Assembly (NCBI GenBank): GCA_024707205.1
Contig: JANQAD010000001.1
Coordinates: 2,445,979-2,509,978 of the forward strand
Direction of reading: 5' to 3'
DNA: 64,000 bases
DNA from: Demequina sp.
GTDB taxonomy: Bacteria > Actinomycetota > Actinomycetes > Actinomycetales > Demequinaceae
Below are positions 39,347 through 48,634 of the stretch, in pieces. The stretch's first letter is position 1. Each line of letters opens with the position of its first letter. The position numbers were made by a program, and so were the translations under genes. Below the pieces are notes generated by a model. The model searched no databases and was not told the DNA's origin. It saw only the letters and a program-made list of their open reading frames with translations.

Positions 39347-42300
39347 CTAGCGGAAGTCGCGGCTCTTGCTCGGCACCTTGAGGCTGAGCGGCGCGATGTG
39401 CTCGGCGACCAGGTTGGTCGCGCCGTCCGCGCGCTCGATCATGCCGCGAATGACGAGCGCCGGGGAACGCCTGGCGACCGCCTGGTACCGCTTCCACACG
39501 GTCTGCGAGCAGATGACGTTGAGGAAGCCCGTCTCGTCCTCAAGCGACAGGAACGTCACGCCCTTGGCGGTGCCTGGGCGCTGGCGGTGGGTGACGACTC
39601 CCGCGACTCTCACGCGACGATCCGACTCGTGCGCGATCACGTCGCCCACGCGCAGCACGCCATTCGCGTCGAGCCCCTCGCGCACGAACACCGTGGGGTA
39701 CACATCCGCCGAAACCCCCGACGCCCACACATCAGCCACAGCCATCTCCACATCCGTCATACCTGGTAGTTGCGGGGCTTCCACCCCGGTGACGACGCCG
39801 GGCAGGGTGTCCGGCCCCTCTTGCGACAGCACGCCCGACGCCCACAGGGCTTCTCGCCTCGTCACGCCTAGGCTCTCGAGGGCTCCGGCGGTGGCGAGGG
39901 TCTCCCATTGCGCGGTGCTCAGTTTCACGCGGCGGGCCATGTCGAGGAGCGAGGCGAATGGGCCGGCGGTGCGGGCATCCACAATGGCCTGCGCCACCTC
40001 CGTCCCTATCCCCCGGACCGACGCCAGCCCCATCCGCACAGCGAGGGTGCGATCCACGTTGACCAACCCGGCCATGTCCTGGCGCACCTCCCCGGGAATC
40101 TCAAACGGCGACTCGAGCCGCTCGACCACCGCCAAAGCCTCCGAGCGCGAAACGCACGGCCGCAGGATGACCTGGCCATGGCGTCGGGCATCCGCGGCGA
40201 GCGACTGCGGCGAGTAGAAGCCCATGGGCTGCGCGGCCAAAAGCCCCGCGTAGAAGGCCGCGGGCTTGTGGACCTTGAGCCAACTGGAGGCGTAGACGAG
40301 GTACGCGAAGCTGAACGAGTGGGACTCGGGGAAGCCGAAGTCGCTGAAGGCCTTGAGCTTGTCGAAGATCTGGTGGGCAACGTCCGCGGTGATACCGCGC
40401 TCGTTTGCGCCCACCATGAAGCGCGCGCGGAGGGCCTCCATGCGCTCGGGGCTGCGCTTGGAGCCCATCGCTCTTCTGAGTTGATCGGCCAGCGCGCCGT
40501 CGAAGCCCGCACAATCCATCGCCATCTGCATGAGCTGCTCCTGGAACAGCGGGACGCCCAGGGTCTTGCTCAGGGACTTTTCCAGCAGCGGATGCAAGTA
40601 GGTGATCTCCTCGCGACCCCGCGCGCGATTGATGTACGGGTGCACCGAGCCGCCCTGGATGGGACCGGGGCGGATGAGCGCAACCTCAACGACGATGTCG
40701 TAGAACTTTCGTGGCCTCAGTCGCGGGAGCGTGGCCATCTGCGCACGGGACTCCACCTGGAACACGCCCACGGTGTCCGCGGCGCACAGGAGGTCGTAGA
40801 CGGCCTGGTCCTCTTGCGGGAGGTCGTGGAGGCCGAGCACGGTGCCTCCCGATTGCTCCCCCTCGGTCTCGCGGATGTACCGGAACGCGTATTTCAGGGC
40901 CGAGAGCATGCCAAGGCCAAGGAGGTCGAACTTCACGAGGCCCGCGTCCGCGCAGTCGTCCTTGTCCCACTGCAGCACGGTGCGGCCGGGCATGCGCGCC
41001 CACTCCACGGGGCATACGTCGATGACGGGGCGGTCACACAGCACCATGCCGCCGGGGTGGATGCCCAGGTGTCTCGGGAGGCGCATGAGGCGATCTGCCA
41101 GGTCCAATACCGGTTCCGGGATGTGGTCCAGATCCTGCGCCGGAGGAGGGTCCGGCCACATCGCGTCACGCTGCTGGGCCGCCCACTGCTCTTGCGCCTC
41201 CACCGGCACCCTGAGCGCGCTCCAGCGGTCTATCGACGTTGACCACGCGTCTTGCTGCCCGACGCCGTAGCCCAGTGCCCTTGCCGCGTCACGTACCGCC
41301 GAGCGGGGTCGGTATTGGATGACGTTGGCCACCATTGCGGCATTGATGCGCCCATGGCGGGCGAAGACGTGCTGGATGACCTCCTCGCGGCGGTCGGACT
41401 CGATGTCGACATCGATGTCTGGTGGGCCGTCGCGCTCGGGGGCGAGGAAGCGCTCGAAGAGCAGGCCATGCGTCACGGCGTCGACCGCGGTGACTCCCAG
41501 TGCGTAGCAGACGGCGGAGTTGGCGGCGCTCCCCCGTCCCTGGCAGAGGATGTCGGACTTGCGGCAGAACGCGACGATGTCGTTGACGATGAGGAAGTAG
41601 CCGGGAAAGTCCAGGGCCTCGATGACGGCGAGCTCGTGCTCGATCTGCTTCCATGCGCCCTTGACGCGTTCCCTGTCTGGGGGCCCATAGCGCTCTCTTG
41701 CGCCGCGGTAGGTCAGCTCCCGCAGCCACGTCGCCTCGGTGTGCCCCTCCGGGACGGGGTAGGGCGGGAGCTTGGGGGCGACGAGGGAGAGGTCGAAGGC
41801 GCATTCGGCGCCGAGCCTTGCCGCCGTGGTCACCGCCTGCGGGTGGCGGCGGTGCCGGTACATCATCTCCCCCGCGCTGCGGAGGTGTTGGCCTGGACTG
41901 CCGGGCAACCAGCCGTCCATGTCGTCGAGACTCGAGCGCGACCTTATGGCAGACAATGCCCCTGCTAGATCGGCGTCACGGGGGTTCGCGTAGTGGGCGT
42001 TCGTGGTGGCCACGAGTGGCAGCTGGGCGTCGAAGGCCAAATCAGCCAGGGCGTCGGCCACCTCCGAATCAAAAGGCGAGCCGCTGTCTGTGATCTCCAC
42101 CGCCACGTTGTCGCGCCCAAACAGGGCCACGAGTTTGTCTAGTTCTGAGCGGGCGGCGACCATCCCGTCGGCCGTGACGGGTGGGCCGCCGAGGACGCCG
42201 CCGCCTAAGGCACGGCGAACGGAGCCTTTGCGACAACCTGTGAGGATGAGGAACTCGCCGCCGCCGGCCTCCGCGAGCCCCTCGAGCGTGTAGTGCGAGC

Positions 42301-42676
42301 GGCCCTTCTCGCCGGTGGCGAGGTGTGCCAGGCCGATCGCGCGGCTGAGGCGCGCGTAGCCGGCGGCGCCGCGTGCGAGCACCACCAGGTGCTGTGCGCG
42401 GGGGTCGGGAGCCTCGGTGGGGGCGTCGAGGATCGGCCGCCCGCGATTGTCGCTAAGGGCGAGGCTGAGCTCGGAGCCGAACACGGTTGGCAGGCCGATG
42501 GAGCGTGCCGCCTGGGCGAATCTGACAACCCCGTACAACCCGTCGTGGTCGGTGATGGCGAGCGCACTGAGCCCCAAACGGCCTGCTTCCGCCGCCATCT
42601 CCTCCGGCTGGCTGGCCCCGTCGAGGAAGCTGAAGGCCGTGTGCGAGTGCAGCTCGGCGTAGTCGATGACCTCCAT
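39347..42676 (-). CDS. dnaE2: error-prone DNA polymerase III alpha DnaE2
   Basis: Translesion C-family polymerase acting with ImuA and ImuB. From the ATG at 42676 it has 1,109 residues: PHP domain (EVIDYAELHSHTAFSFLDG), polymerase palm with PDIDVDIESDRR, helix-hairpin-helix region and a C-terminal OB fold (VRVAGVVTHRQRPG). An upstream ATG at 42703 abuts the LexA box; 42676 is preferred because the family N-terminus begins there and it overlaps the stop of a leaderless mini-frame (TGATG). The frame is intact. Confidence 0.95.
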   Translation of the reverse strand: MEVIDYAELHSHTAFSFLDGASQPEEMAAEAGRLGLSALAITDHDGLYGVVRFAQAARSIGLPTVFGSELSLALSDNRGRPILDAPTEAPDPRAQHLVVLARGAAGYARLSRAIGLAHLATGEKGRSHYTLEGLAEAGGGEFLILTGCRKGSVRRALGGGVLGGPPVTADGMVAARSELDKLVALFGRDNVAVEITDSGSPFDSEVADALADLAFDAQLPLVATTNAHYANPRDADLAGALSAIRSRSSLDDMDGWLPGSPGQHLRSAGEMMYRHRRHPQAVTTAARLGAECAFDLSLVAPKLPPYPVPEGHTEATWLRELTYRGARERYGPPDRERVKGAWKQIEHELAVIEALDFPGYFLIVNDIVAFCRKSDILCQGRGSAANSAVCYALGVTAVDAVTHGLLFERFLAPERDGPPDIDVDIESDRREEVIQHVFARHGRINAAMVANVIQYRPRSAVRDAARALGYGVGQQDAWSTSIDRWSALRVPVEAQEQWAAQQRDAMWPDPPPAQDLDHIPEPVLDLADRLMRLPRHLGIHPGGMVLCDRPVIDVCPVEWARMPGRTVLQWDKDDCADAGLVKFDLLGLGMLSALKYAFRYIRETEGEQSGGTVLGLHDLPQEDQAVYDLLCAADTVGVFQVESRAQMATLPRLRPRKFYDIVVEVALIRPGPIQGGSVHPYINRARGREEITYLHPLLEKSLSKTLGVPLFQEQLMQMAMDCAGFDGALADQLRRAMGSKRSPERMEALRARFMVGANERGITADVAHQIFDKLKAFSDFGFPESHSFSFAYLVYASSWLKVHKPAAFYAGLLAAQPMGFYSPQSLAADARRHGQVILRPCVSRSEALAVVERLESPFEIPGEVRQDMAGLVNVDRTLAVRMGLASVRGIGTEVAQAIVDARTAGPFASLLDMARRVKLSTAQWETLATAGALESLGVTRREALWASGVLSQEGPDTLPGVVTGVEAPQLPGMTDVEMAVADVWASGVSADVYPTVFVREGLDANGVLRVGDVIAHESDRRVRVAGVVTHRQRPGTAKGVTFLSLEDETGFLNVICSQTVWKRYQAVARRSPALVIRGMIERADGATNLVAEHIAPLSLKVPSKSRDFR

Positions 42677-42711
42677 CAGCGCGCCACCAGCGATCCCATC
42701 CATTCGAACAT
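42676..42711 (-). other. possible leaderless upstream mini-ORF of dnaE2
   Basis: The LexA box contains an ATG (42709-42711) seven bases after the CATAAT -10. It would encode MFEWMGSLVAR and stop at TGA 42676-42678, which overlaps the dnaE2 ATG. A leaderless ribosome could reinitiate on dnaE2. This is inference from layout; there is no evidence of a functional peptide. Confidence 0.4.
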
Positions 42712-42740
42712 ATGTTCGATTATGGCACTTGCACGTGACA
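42704..42740 (-). promoter_or_regulatory. SOS promoter of dnaE2 (LexA box, extended -10, TGTCA element)
   Basis: The perfect palindrome TCGAACATATGTTCGA (42704-42719) is a consensus actinobacterial LexA site. It overlaps the -10 CATAAT (42719-42724), which is preceded by TGC as an extended -10. TGTCAC (42735-42740) begins 16 bases upstream of the -10, the spacing known for the mycobacterial RecA-independent (PafBC) damage promoter TGTCRgtg-N8-TAnnnT. Confidence 0.88.
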
Positions 42741-42798: not shown

Positions 42799-43326
42799 AT
42801 GGCGGCCTTTGACGAAGATGCAATCTTCACCCACCCCCTCGACTTCGAGTTGGCGGGTGGGCCAACGCTGTTCTGGCGTGCGGAGGTCTTGGAAGCCGCA
42901 ATTTCATGGCTTGGCGACAACGGCTACGACGTCGTCTCACTCGTCGCAGCCGAATGGGGTGAGCCGGCGCAGATGCACCGAGATCTGGCGCACGCCCTCA
43001 GTTTCCCTGCGTACTACGGCAACAACCTCGACGCTCTCAACGACTGCATGTTCGGTGTCGCGTGTGGGGAATATGGCATAGGAGCCGAGGCGGCCGGACT
43101 CGCACTAGTCCTAAGGAACTTCGATGGGTTCGTGCGGGACGACAGAGCCACCGCGCACCTAGCGCTTGAGATCTTCGCAGGTCAAGCGGCGTTCGCCATG
43201 CGTTTCGGTCGGAGAATTCTGATCTTGCTGCAATCCGACGACCCGAACCTGGTCCTAGATCCAGTCGGTGCGATCACACCGCGTTGGAACGGACGCGAGT
43301 GGCTCGACACTTCCAGAGAGCTGTAA
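42799..43326 (+). CDS. barstar-family protein
   Basis: 175 residues. FPAYYGNNLDALNDCM in the first half is the barstar (RNase inhibitor) hallmark; VLRNFDGFVRDD corresponds to the next strand and helix. It is longer than classical barstar (about 90 residues), with an N-terminal extension. No barnase-like RNase gene is adjacent. GC content and codon use are lower than in dnaE2, consistent with acquisition. It is divergent from dnaE2 and could share its LexA site. Confidence 0.8.
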   Translation: MAAFDEDAIFTHPLDFELAGGPTLFWRAEVLEAAISWLGDNGYDVVSLVAAEWGEPAQMHRDLAHALSFPAYYGNNLDALNDCMFGVACGEYGIGAEAAGLALVLRNFDGFVRDDRATAHLALEIFAGQAAFAMRFGRRILILLQSDDPNLVLDPVGAITPRWNGREWLDTSREL

Positions 43327-43366
43327 CTGAGAGAAGTTCACCGGGGTGCCGTTCCTGCGGATTCGC

Positions 43367-43777
43367 TCAACCGTCCGTCCAGGGGTTCATGACGGCAATC
43401 CCAGCGCCCTCAAAGTGCTTGACGTTGCGCGTTGCAAGCGCGTGGCCACCCGTTGCCGCTATCGCAGCGATCTGGACGTCGAGCGAGCCGGAATTCATCC
43501 CCGCCGCCTCTAGTGCGGCGCGGATCGTGGCGAATGCGAAGGCTTCCAGCTCCCCGAAAGACAGCACAGGAATGCCCGCGAGGCCCGCGTCGAGAACTGC
43601 TGTGAGCGCCCGCTTGCGTACGCCCTCGGGCAGCCTCGCGACTCCATAGCGCAGCTCCGCGACCGTGATCGCGGTTGTGGCGACCTCGGCACTGTGTTGC
43701 GCAAACCACGAGGTCACCGCCTCATCAGGCTCGGTGCGCATCGTCTCGCTGAGAACGTTGGTGTCAAGGATGATCAC
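43367..43777 (-). CDS. FitB/VapC-type PIN toxin
   Basis: 136-residue PIN nuclease. MIILDTNVLSE carries the first Asp, TVAELRYGV the Glu, SLDVQIAAIAATGGHALATRN the last acidic residues. The TNVLSE and TRNVKHF segments are typical of the FitB group. The GTG start is two bases after the antitoxin stop. Confidence 0.88.
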   Translation of the reverse strand: MIILDTNVLSETMRTEPDEAVTSWFAQHSAEVATTAITVAELRYGVARLPEGVRKRALTAVLDAGLAGIPVLSFGELEAFAFATIRAALEAAGMNSGSLDVQIAAIAATGGHALATRNVKHFEGAGIAVMNPWTDG

Positions 43778-43779
43778 GG

Positions 43780-44022
43780 TCAGTCGAACTCAACCGGTTG
43801 GGTCACCTCGCGTGCCGGAATCTCGAGCTCAACGCCACCCAGTGCGCGGATCTCAGCCATCGCATCGAGCCACCGTTGACCGGCATTGGCACCCTGGGAC
43901 GCGACGGCATCTTGAAGAATCTCCCTCACCTCAGCCTCCATGGAGCGGTCATGCCGGGCCGCGCGCTCCTTGAGCGCGCGCCTGGTCTCCTCGGGCAGAT
44001 TGCGAATCGTCAGTGTGGCCAT
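43780..44022 (-). CDS. FitA-type ribbon-helix-helix antitoxin
   Basis: 80 residues. MATLTIRNLPEETRRALKERA followed by a helix ending in EAEVREIL is the FitA Arc-like fold; the C-terminal part binds the toxin. A GGAGG ribosome site lies upstream of the ATG, and a perfect 16-bp palindrome upstream of that is the likely autoregulatory operator. The frame continues upstream into imuB only because stop codons are absent. Confidence 0.85.
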   Translation of the reverse strand: MATLTIRNLPEETRRALKERAARHDRSMEAEVREILQDAVASQGANAGQRWLDAMAEIRALGGVELEIPAREVTQPVEFD

Positions 44023-44038
44023 GGCTTGCCTCCTGACA

Positions 44039-44054
44039 GCAATGCTAGCATTGC
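44039..44054. promoter_or_regulatory. operator palindrome of the fitAB-type operon
   Basis: GCAATGCTAGCATTGC is a perfect 16-bp palindrome 17 bases upstream of the antitoxin ATG. On the minus strand it forms GCTAGCAAT-GCTAGCATT direct repeats with TAGCAT usable as -10. It is probably bound by the RHH antitoxin. Confidence 0.65.
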
Positions 44055-44077: not shown

Positions 44078-45749
44078 CTAGTCATACACCGCCTCGAGCA
44101 TCCACTGCCCGCCCTTGAAGGCCACGAGTACCGCTCGATCGCCGAGCGACACCTGCAGGTACGCCCCCTGGACGCGTCGCCGCTCCACCACCGCTGCGCA
44201 ATGGGCCACGGCCCCGCCCACGCCTCCACGGGCCGCGGCCGGTCCCACACCGGCGCCTTCACTTGCCCCACATGGCCCGACGCTGGGTGCCGGTTCGCGG
44301 CGCGCGCTCGCTCGTCGTTGGGGTCGGCTTCGAGGCGCACCCACGTTGGCGGCGCGCTGATCGCGAGGCGGCGGTCGACGGTCACGGGGGTGCCGCCCGC
44401 GTCGAGCACCTCAACGGGGGCAGGGGTGGCGAGCACGGTCGCGGGCGCCGGATCCGGAATGCCCCCTGGCCAAGGATGAGCGAGCGGCCGGGACTCGGCC
44501 GCCTCTTGACCCCAAGGCAACGCCAATACCCGCTCTCGCGGAGATCGGCCGCCTTGCTCGCGAACGGCGAGCACACCGTCGGGCCCGAGCAGACCCTGGA
44601 CGCGCTCAAGCGTGCGCTGCGCGCGCGAGTCCGCGCCGGAGACGCCGCCCCACAAATAGGACTGCTCGGATCCCAAAGGCACCACGTCCTCCGCGACCAC
44701 GCCCAGACTCGTCAGCCCCGAGCGCTCCGGGCCCTCCGAGGTGCCGCTCAGCCAGCCCTCGAGCTGCCAGCGGACGCGGTCGGCCATGTGGTTGGCGAAG
44801 GCGCCCGCCCTTGCCCCAACGTCAGTGCGCCACACCCGCTCCAGTTGCTGACCGCGCTCCGTACCAGCGACGATGCGCACCTTGCCGCAGCGCATGCCGG
44901 CATCGAGCAGGGCGGCATCCAACCGCTCGGCGAGCAGGCGTGCCACGGGGACGAGCTGCTCGGAATTCTGGGCGGGCTCTTCGAAGACGTACTCGACCGC
45001 GATGTCCTCCTCCGCGCGGCGCAGCACGGGGGTGCGACATCCTCGCCGCGAGCGACGCGATGCGCCCACGCGCCAACCGGCCCAAAGCGCGCGAGGACGT
45101 CGGGGAACGGCAGCGCCGTGAATGCGCCGAGCGTCTCGATGCCGAGCCGCGTGAGCACGGAAACCAGGTCCTCCACCGCCTCGCGCTTGGTGCGCTCCAT
45201 CGCCGCGAGGGCGAGCGTGCCGATGGGGTGTGGCGCGAGGAACGCCGCCGACTCCCCCGCTGGGATGAGCACAGACGCCCTGGCCGCGAGCACCGCCGCG
45301 AGCAGGCCGTCGGCCGCTCCTACTGAGCTTTCGCAGCCGGCGAGCTCCGCGACCGCGCTGACGAGCGCCTCGGCGAGCGCCTCCTCAGAGCCGTGGAAAC
45401 GTGCCGCGCCGTCCGCGGGGATCATGAGCATGCCCGGCCGCGAGATCTCGACGCCCGCGACCACGTCCTCGGCGGCGGCCGCGACGGCCTCGAAGGCACG
45501 GGCGTCGCGGACCTCGTCGTACGGGAGGATCGTGATGTCGGGGCATGCGCGCTGCGCGAGGCGCTTGCGCTGGCCGCGCCTGACCCCGGCGGCACGGGCG
45601 GACGCCGAGACCGCGACCATGCCGCGGCCGTAGAGCACCGCGGCGGGCGCGCTGGGGCTCAGCCCGGCCTCCGCGGCCGCGGCGACGACGGGCCAGTCGG
45701 GCACCCACAGCACGGCGCGGCGGGTGGTGGCGACCACGGGGGTGGTCAT
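44078..45749 (-). CDS. imuB: ImuB, Y-family-like mutasome protein (two frameshifts)
   Basis: Non-catalytic Y-family polymerase that links DnaE2 to the sliding clamp. The N-terminal part (VLWVPDWPVVAAAAEAGL) lacks the polymerase acidic residues, as usual for ImuB; the C-terminus has QRWWSGD and ends KGGQWMLEAVYD. The frame breaks at 45028-45032 (five G, six expected) and again at 44164-44168 (five C, six expected), both on the plus strand. Correcting both gives one 557-residue protein of normal length. ATG 45749 follows GGGAG. The breaks are probably sequencing errors. Confidence 0.88.
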
Positions 45750-45784
45750 GGCGCGCTCCCTGCCGCGCGTCACTGCCGAGCCGT

Positions 45785-45821
45785 TCGAACATGTGTTCGA
45801 TTATGGCATTGGCCAGTGACA
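45785..45821 (-). promoter_or_regulatory. SOS promoter of imuB
   Basis: LexA box TCGAACATGTGTTCGA (45785-45800, one central change from the other two boxes), -10 CATAAT (45800-45805) with upstream TGC, and TGTCAC (45816-45821) 16 bases before the -10. The layout is identical to the dnaE2 and imuA promoters. The imuB start is about 35 bases downstream, with a normal leader. Confidence 0.88.
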
Positions 45822-47889: not shown

Positions 47890-48582
47890 TCACGCCGCCC
47901 CCTCCAAGCTTGCCTGCCCGACGCTGGCTCGGCTTTCGCTCCGCAGCATCACGTCGGCGTCAAGCACCAGGGCGACGCGCCGGGGCTGGCCTCCCGCGCG
48001 GGAGGTCACCTCCACGAGCAGATCCCGAGCGCGCAGTCGGCCGTCACCCGCGCCGAGCCCTCGCCAGGCGGACTCGACAACGGCCAAGTTCACGTGTGCC
48101 CCATCCCACGGGCCGGCACTGATGAGAACAGCTCCCCGCTCTCGCGCGCGAGCAGCCAACCGCCGCCGATCCGCGTCGTTGAGCGCGAGCCGCGGTCCCA
48201 GCACCACCACCTCCATGCCGTCGACGCACGCGCCCGCAACGGCCGGTGCCTGCGCCCCCGGATGCGGAACCAGCGCGAGCCGCGCGAGCTCGATCCCCCT
48301 GCGCGCGGCCGCGACCACGCCAACGCTCGGCATCCCGATCATCGCAGTCCACGAGCCCTCGCGAGACGCCTCCGCCACCAGCGCGAGCACCAGGGACGTC
48401 GAACCCTGCACCGCGACCACCTGGCCGCGACGGAGGCCGGTGGGCAGAGCGTCGGACAGTGCGGGGGCAAGGGGAAGCGTTGGCGCGTCCCAACACTCCC
48501 TACTAGTACCAACCCGCGTCTGCACGGCGGCGAGCGCCGCCCTGGCCTTCTCGAGGCGCGCGGACTGAAGAGTGGCGTCCAT
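47890..48582 (-). CDS. imuA: ImuA, RecA-like mutasome protein
   Basis: RecA-fold accessory protein of the ImuA-ImuB-DnaE2 translesion system. 230 residues from the ATG at 48582, chosen because GGGAGG precedes it; ATGs at 48597 and 48594 abut the LexA box. It has LPTGLRRGQVVAVQG in place of a proper Walker A, then VGVVAAARRGIELARLALVP and VVVLGPR. The family is divergent, and identification rests on these segments plus the SOS box and synteny. Confidence 0.82.
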   Translation of the reverse strand: MDATLQSARLEKARAALAAVQTRVGTSRECWDAPTLPLAPALSDALPTGLRRGQVVAVQGSTSLVLALVAEASREGSWTAMIGMPSVGVVAAARRGIELARLALVPHPGAQAPAVAGACVDGMEVVVLGPRLALNDADRRRLAARARERGAVLISAGPWDGAHVNLAVVESAWRGLGAGDGRLRARDLLVEVTSRAGGQPRRVALVLDADVMLRSESRASVGQASLEGAA

Positions 48583-48597
48583 GACCCCTCCCATCAT

Positions 48598-48634
48598 TCG
48601 AACATATGTTCGATTATGGCACCTGGGTGTGACA
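48598..48634 (-). promoter_or_regulatory. SOS promoter of imuA
   Basis: LexA box TCGAACATATGTTCGA (48598-48613), -10 CATAAT (48613-48618) with TGC upstream, and TGTCAC (48629-48634) 16 bases before the -10. The core from the TGC through the LexA box matches the dnaE2 promoter exactly. Confidence 0.88.

Follow-up and report, generated by a model that had tools for sequence, protein, structure and literature searches.

The window, that is the whole stretch of 64,000 nucleotides of Demequina DNA that was analysed, carries on its minus strand the genes imuA', imuB and dnaE2, each with a LexA box upstream (Table 1). DnaE2 is identified by the NCBIfam model NF004225 (1406.8 bits); its frame is open across 1109 codons and, read from the ATG at 42676, its N-terminus is similar in length to those of Demequina orthologues. 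The genes are those of the imuA'-imuB-dnaE2 mutasome operon, whereas their arrangement is not: they stand apart, with a composite promoter each, while elsewhere the dnaE2 start overlaps the imuB stop, as it does in 28 of the 34 loci compared (33 Demequina loci and the window). Among these, only the window and L010 have a box immediately upstream of dnaE2; from the imuA' box, dnaE2 lies 5894 nt away in the window and 4113 nt away in L010, as against ~2440 nt in L007 and L013. What splits the usual operon in the window is a barstar-family gene and a FitAB-type toxin-antitoxin pair; the interval between imuB and dnaE2 (42799-44040) holds the barstar-family gene on the plus strand, a PIN-domain protein and a FitA-like antitoxin. 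The imuB gene, otherwise well conserved and intact in relatives, is split between two frames near 45025 (45021-45030, minus strand), which may be either real or an assembly error; when the window's genes were set against five Demequina loci, no other gene was clearly split.

Table 1. Mutasome genes of the window and their promoter elements
Feature	Position	Strand	Remarks
PafBC (RecA-NDp) type element TGTCAC	42735..42740	-	exactly 10 nt upstream of the -10 element
-10 element CATAAT	42719..42724	-	final T is the first base of the LexA box
LexA (SOS) box TCGAACATATGTTCGA, palindromic	42704..42719	-	perfect match
Predicted transcription start, A of the in-box ATG	42711..42711	-	predicted from the -10 spacing and the in-box starts of relatives
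11-codon frame MFEWMGSLVAR and stop TGA	42676..42711	-	read base by base
dnaE2 (MEVIDYAELH...), from the ATG overlapping the mini-ORF stop	39347..42676	-	
Alternative in-frame dnaE2 ATG	42701..42703	-	8 nt from the predicted RNA 5' end
imuA' LexA box	48598..48613	-	TGTCAC 48634-48629, CATAAT 48618-48613; in-box ATG opens MFE and a stop
imuA'	47890..48597	-	NF058630, 168.3 bits
imuB LexA box	45785..45800	-	TGTCAC 45821-45816, CATAAT 45805-45800; in-box ATG out of frame with imuB
imuB, frame interrupted near 45025	44167..45773	-	first part matches Pfam IMS, 52.5 bits

All three promoters follow one plan: TGTCAC, 10 nt, CATAAT and the LexA box. The LexA box is beyond chance: with up to three mismatches the pattern is matched three times in the window against 0.06 expected, and the exact TCGAAC-N4-GTTCGA occurs at six sites in the genome, a single contig of 2.54 Mb, where the reversed-pattern control gives none. 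The promoter of dnaE2, an SOS gene, thus has the near-perfect TCGAAC-N4-GTTCGA by which members of the LexA regulon are recognized. The upstream half resembles the actinobacterial PafBC/RecA-NDp promoters, in which TGTC(G/A)(G/C) stands 10 nt before the -10 and among which some genes are reported to carry a PafBC motif together with an SOS box (PMC8151990, PMC8223512); the M. tuberculosis motif is given there as TGTCGG/TGTCAG/TGTCAC-10N-TA-3N-T (PMC8151990). TGTC(G/A)(G/C) at this spacing is present at all three window promoters; their CATAAT has C for T at the first base of TA-3N-T and fits the other fixed bases. This exchange is general in a set of 34 promoters (32 of imuA', the window's included, with those of dnaE2 and imuB of the window), 33 of which have C or G as first base of the -10. 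In 31 of the 34, the distance from TGTC to the -10 is exactly 10 nt; L039 misses the spacing because it entered the set by its second box. The first base of the -10 and the fusion of a LexA box to the same -10 distinguish these promoters from the published ones, and binding of PafBC to them is predicted. The activator is present in the genome, which encodes PafC (HTH_PafC, 93.3 bits; PDB PafC, E 3.1e-15) and has two adjacent WYL matches. In this genome record, pafB and pafC (L333, 116-2001) appear frame-broken; the gene that follows them we take to be tatC. At the level of sequence, joint control of the mutasome by PafBC and LexA is suggested for Demequina. We also considered whether the imuA' promoter had recently been copied to dnaE2 as a long duplication and rejected this, as the flanks beyond TGTCAC and the TGCCATAAT-box stretch differ by eye.

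The dnaE2 box has an ATG (42711-42709, minus strand) separated from CATAAT by 7 nt (42718-42712). It opens the codons ATG TTC GAA TGG ATG GGA TCG CTG GTG GCG CGC TGA (42711-42676), and the stop overlaps the dnaE2 ATG (42676) in TGATG; reading base by base confirms both the 11-codon frame seven bases after CATAAT and the stop-start overlap of the original prediction. The ATG as such is not beyond chance, because it is dictated by the ATAT core of the LexA palindrome. Its A lies 10.5 bp from the centre of the -10, and for mapped M. tuberculosis starts the -10 centre is reported 7-12 bp upstream (PMC3898074). Since the -10 is fixed by a second element and its spacing, the 5' end of the RNA most likely falls on the in-box ATG or two bases upstream. 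An error of the assembly, a small indel between box and gene that masks an in-box start of DnaE2 such as the related families have, might be suspected, given that imuB is frame-broken and the pafB and pafC frames look broken; since dnaE2 is intact over its long frame and imuB is the sole clear split, an indel in the 27 nt between box and gene is unlikely, and we would give this explanation very little credit.

An RNA that starts at the in-box ATG could be loaded by a 70S ribosome without a ribosome site. At the dnaE2 ATG at 42676, the best anti-SD duplex reaches -4.9 kcal/mol, a value that 29.6% of random window positions reach or exceed. The median of 38 comparator dnaE2 starts is -8.2, with one weaker than the window and one equal to it, the comparators having been scored by the best of nearby in-frame starts, which favours them over the window; the weak ribosome site first noted at dnaE2 is borne out. 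All duplex energies are computed with an assumed anti-SD sequence. Absent from the original prediction is an ATG at 42703, which is in frame with dnaE2 and would add 9 residues to DnaE2, the protein then beginning MDGIA. As the first in-frame ATG past the predicted RNA start, with no stop before dnaE2, it could be the true start behind an 8-nt leader, the in-box ATG competing with it or being ignored. We consider this unlikely, as the codon has no ribosome site (0.1 kcal/mol), lies away from the RNA 5' end and would make a protein whose N-terminus agrees less well in length with the orthologues than that from 42676; nor is a good -10 seen by eye for an RNA beginning at 42703.

The predicted leader was also considered as an attenuator, in which the mini-ORF would act as a regulatory leader peptide, responding to translation or to a metabolite and governing a terminator. 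Its position, a short ORF at the predicted 5' end, would suit this role, but the first 60 nt of the RNA have no notable structure (z = +1.37; 186 of 200 shuffled sequences are at least as stable), and no stable hairpin or terminator follows the leader ORF within them. The mini-ORF moreover runs straight into dnaE2, and its peptide is not conserved, so that such a mechanism is highly improbable. A function of the peptide itself was likewise rejected: the mini-ORF peptides share only MFE, MFD or MYD, which the operator dictates.

The case for a start inside the operator draws on relatives. The comparison loci first gathered numbered 35, all Demequina or Demequinaceae; for dnaE2, 213 5' ends were merged to 177 distinct ones and only the best box of each was kept. 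A LexA box is present in 34 of the 177, and in 25 of these it is in register, the -10 (NANNNT; TANNNT in 22) sharing its T with the box. The in-box codon of these 25 is ATG in 23, GTG in one and CTG in one, and in 15 of them an in-box ATG or GTG is in frame with DnaE2; among the nine out-of-register boxes, none of four in-box ATGs is. From the in-box codon to the conserved ELH, 13 of the 15 in-frame cases contain no other ATG, GTG or TTG. Four of the 15 (L074, L110, L174, L323) also have no start codon upstream in the open frame, and in nine, further start codons of this frame precede both the box and the predicted RNA start. The ATG is found on the coding strand only in 18 in-register boxes, on the other strand only in one and on both in five, although these rows are related and not independent. 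In families f13 and f3, which belong to the same order, DnaE2 read from the in-box ATG begins MFDYAEL, MFASGYAEL, MFEGYAEL, MYDQGPRYAEL, MFDRYFEL etc. The same holds for ImuA' in Demequina L010 (with GTG), L012 and L017, where the in-box codon is in frame and no other start precedes the conserved segment, and apparently for L322 from outside Demequina, whose ImuA' is identified by resemblance only.

An in-box start throughout the class was rejected, since in family f22 the -10 follows the box and GTG or ATG comes 6-7 nt later. The loci concerned (L147, L149, L158, L159, L167, L168) have TANNNT just after the SOS box; f22, presumably mycobacteria to judge from the DnaE2 N-terminus, looks to have a leaderless dnaE2 as well, with the box upstream of the start. 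A further 60 regions were examined at class level; 48 of them contain the dnaE2 motif, and seven of these have a box (up to two mismatches).

The Demequina imuA' boxes do not keep the ATG, and selection on the in-box ATG everywhere was rejected on that ground. The core is ATAT in 18 of the 34 promoters and ATAC in six, where ACG replaces ATG. By a hand tally of the listed cores, the 32 imuA' rows have ATG on the coding strand only in three and on the other strand only in eight; the missing lean to the coding strand is what a dispensable codon would give. A start with some ribosome site was read by eye in 26 of 31 imuA' rows, a table that left out L008 (whose element is CGTC) and loci without imuA'. 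These observations favour a more modest view of the dnaE2 promoter, in which the ATG is a mere palindrome centre, the mini-ORF is hardly used, and DnaE2 starts at 42676 behind a short leader by its weak ribosome site. The operator-dictated likeness of the peptides, the featureless RNA fold and a chance rate of 8-10% for stop-start overlap agree with it. On the other side, relatives seem to need the in-box codon as their DnaE2 start, a 5' AUG is enough for leaderless initiation in mycobacteria (PMC4633059), and the ribosome site on which DnaE2 would then depend is weak. We judge this view to be rather improbable, yet the most serious of the alternatives.

Whether the mini-ORF is coupled to dnaE2 is a separate matter from the leaderless start. 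In-register in-box ATGs out of frame with DnaE2 number nine, and in seven of them (L175, L177, L183, L193, L195, L314 and the window) the short frame, of 7 to 19 codons, ends in a stop that overlaps the dnaE2 start. The overlap is ATGA in L175, L177 and L183, GTGA in L193, L195 and L314, and TGATG in the window only, so that the window's own arrangement is that of a single genome and differs from the RTGA of the other cases. In simulated out-of-frame random sequence such overlaps arise at a rate of 8-10%, offsets divisible by 3 having been excluded although L010 is such a case; the rate is not small because RTGA arises wherever the start codon is followed by A and the short frame has not stopped before. 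The overlap survey by locus took 24 chosen loci. On a tree of 23 rows (L200 left out), the coupled state must have changed at least three times to satisfy the well-supported branches, perhaps as one gain and two losses, and genus g189 of family f3 contains both states, L194 and L315 being in frame and L193, L195 and L314 coupled. L010, nearest to the window in the tree, has the stop, 3 nt and then ATG, that is no overlap, with a strong ribosome site (-12.1); L312 is uncoupled, and its box is followed by a second -10. The mini-ORF itself contains a strong ribosome site in L175, L177, L195 and L314 (-8.1 to -10.3), and the sites of L183 (-5.8) and L193 (-6.6) are also better than the window's; with better sites in all six other coupled cases, the overlap there may be incidental. 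In-box codons may also open long frames in the wrong register: the ATG of the imuB box (45792) starts an ORF of ~135 codons across imuB (45385-45792, minus strand), and the frames opened by the in-box codons of L007, L014, L018 and L031 likewise continue beyond the imuA' start without matching its frame. Such reading would be costly if 5' initiation is strong, and the imuB in-box frame offers a natural test of the strength of 5' AUG initiation. Of the leaderless mini-ORF coupled to dnaE2 that had been predicted, the leaderless start is well supported by comparison, through a -10 fixed by TGTC and the in-frame in-box codons of relatives; the coupling is suggested by its recurrence and by the changes of state, and is weakened by the better ribosome sites elsewhere and the wrong frame at imuB.

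Two of the closest known systems are mycobacterial. In mycobacteria, leaderless translation depends on an RTG at the 5' end of the RNA, which is also enough for it, and small ORFs that are leaderless and coupled are over-represented (Shell et al. 2015, PMC4633059). As in the window, an RTG at the RNA start begins a short frame that ends in a stop overlapping the following start, and in an example given in that paper the linkage is conserved and the peptide is not. The 11 codons of the mini-ORF, counted from an ATG at the predicted RNA start, lie within the 5-50 codons of this class. Its RTGA overlap, in contrast, is replaced by TGATG in the window and is found in the six other coupled loci; furthermore, the RNA starts of the class are mapped and the parts of the paper available describe no repressor site, whereas the start in the window is predicted and lies inside a LexA operator. 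M. tuberculosis lexA is likewise an SOS gene whose start codon coincides with the transcription start, as concluded from frameshift mutagenesis (Smollett et al. 2009, PMC2897130); its start codon, however, begins a real protein and is not placed inside the SOS box in the available portion of that report. Leaderless coupled small ORFs are hence already known, and what appears to be new here is the fusion with a LexA operator; a literature search restricted to open-licence papers turned up none that describes a start codon lying within a LexA box.

These features could operate together in the following manner: PafBC would recruit RNA polymerase via TGTCAC and the CATAAT -10, and LexA would cover a 16-bp stretch in which the -10 ends and in which the transcription start and the ATG lie. 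Upon cleavage of LexA, the RNA would begin at the in-box ATG or within 2 nt of it, and the 5' AUG may take up a 70S ribosome with no ribosome site being needed. Among related families, the in-box start often lies in the frame of DnaE2 itself; in the window, the 11-codon leader cistron would release the ribosome on the dnaE2 start codon. The split of the operon would have removed the imuB/dnaE2 stop-start junction and the mini-ORF would restore one, so that much of DnaE2 translation would come from stop-start coupling at the mini-ORF instead of from the overlap with imuB. We favour this composite damage switch as a whole with modest confidence: a leaderless start inside the LexA operator is well supported by the sequence comparisons, and reinitiation or coupling into dnaE2 is plausible. 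The geometry, the conserved spacing, the relatives' in-box codons in frame and the recurring stop-start overlap are observed; we infer the exact RNA 5' end, leaderless translation at this site, reinitiation and its share, and the binding of LexA and PafBC.

A wider reading, tentative and somewhat doubtful, is that a single 16-bp element serves, in part of the order, as SOS operator, as RNA start and as start codon of the polymerase. LexA would fix the codon yet leave the frame beyond it free, so that small indels could switch dnaE2 between direct leaderless and coupled translation, a gain control for mutagenesis that would evolve without touching repression. If true, release of the repressor and ribosome loading of the error-prone polymerase would be set by the same 16 bp, and mutations in the operator core would therefore have to be judged for both LexA binding and translation. 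Families with the in-box codon in frame with DnaE2 constitute a natural experiment, and gene prediction that favours ribosome sites may put in-box starts in the wrong place.

Additional LexA half-sites lying 12 bp on create overlapping boxes in 11 of 35 composite promoters, the 11 being imuA' promoters (L007, L011, L013, L015, L018, L019, L026, L028, L031, L036, L037), possibly as an array for cooperative LexA binding. Finally, L003, from the window's own genome, has in minus orientation a LexA box followed by TAGCAT, 6 nt and GTG; the gene behind this box, which we take to be uvrA, is probably leaderless in the arrangement of f22.
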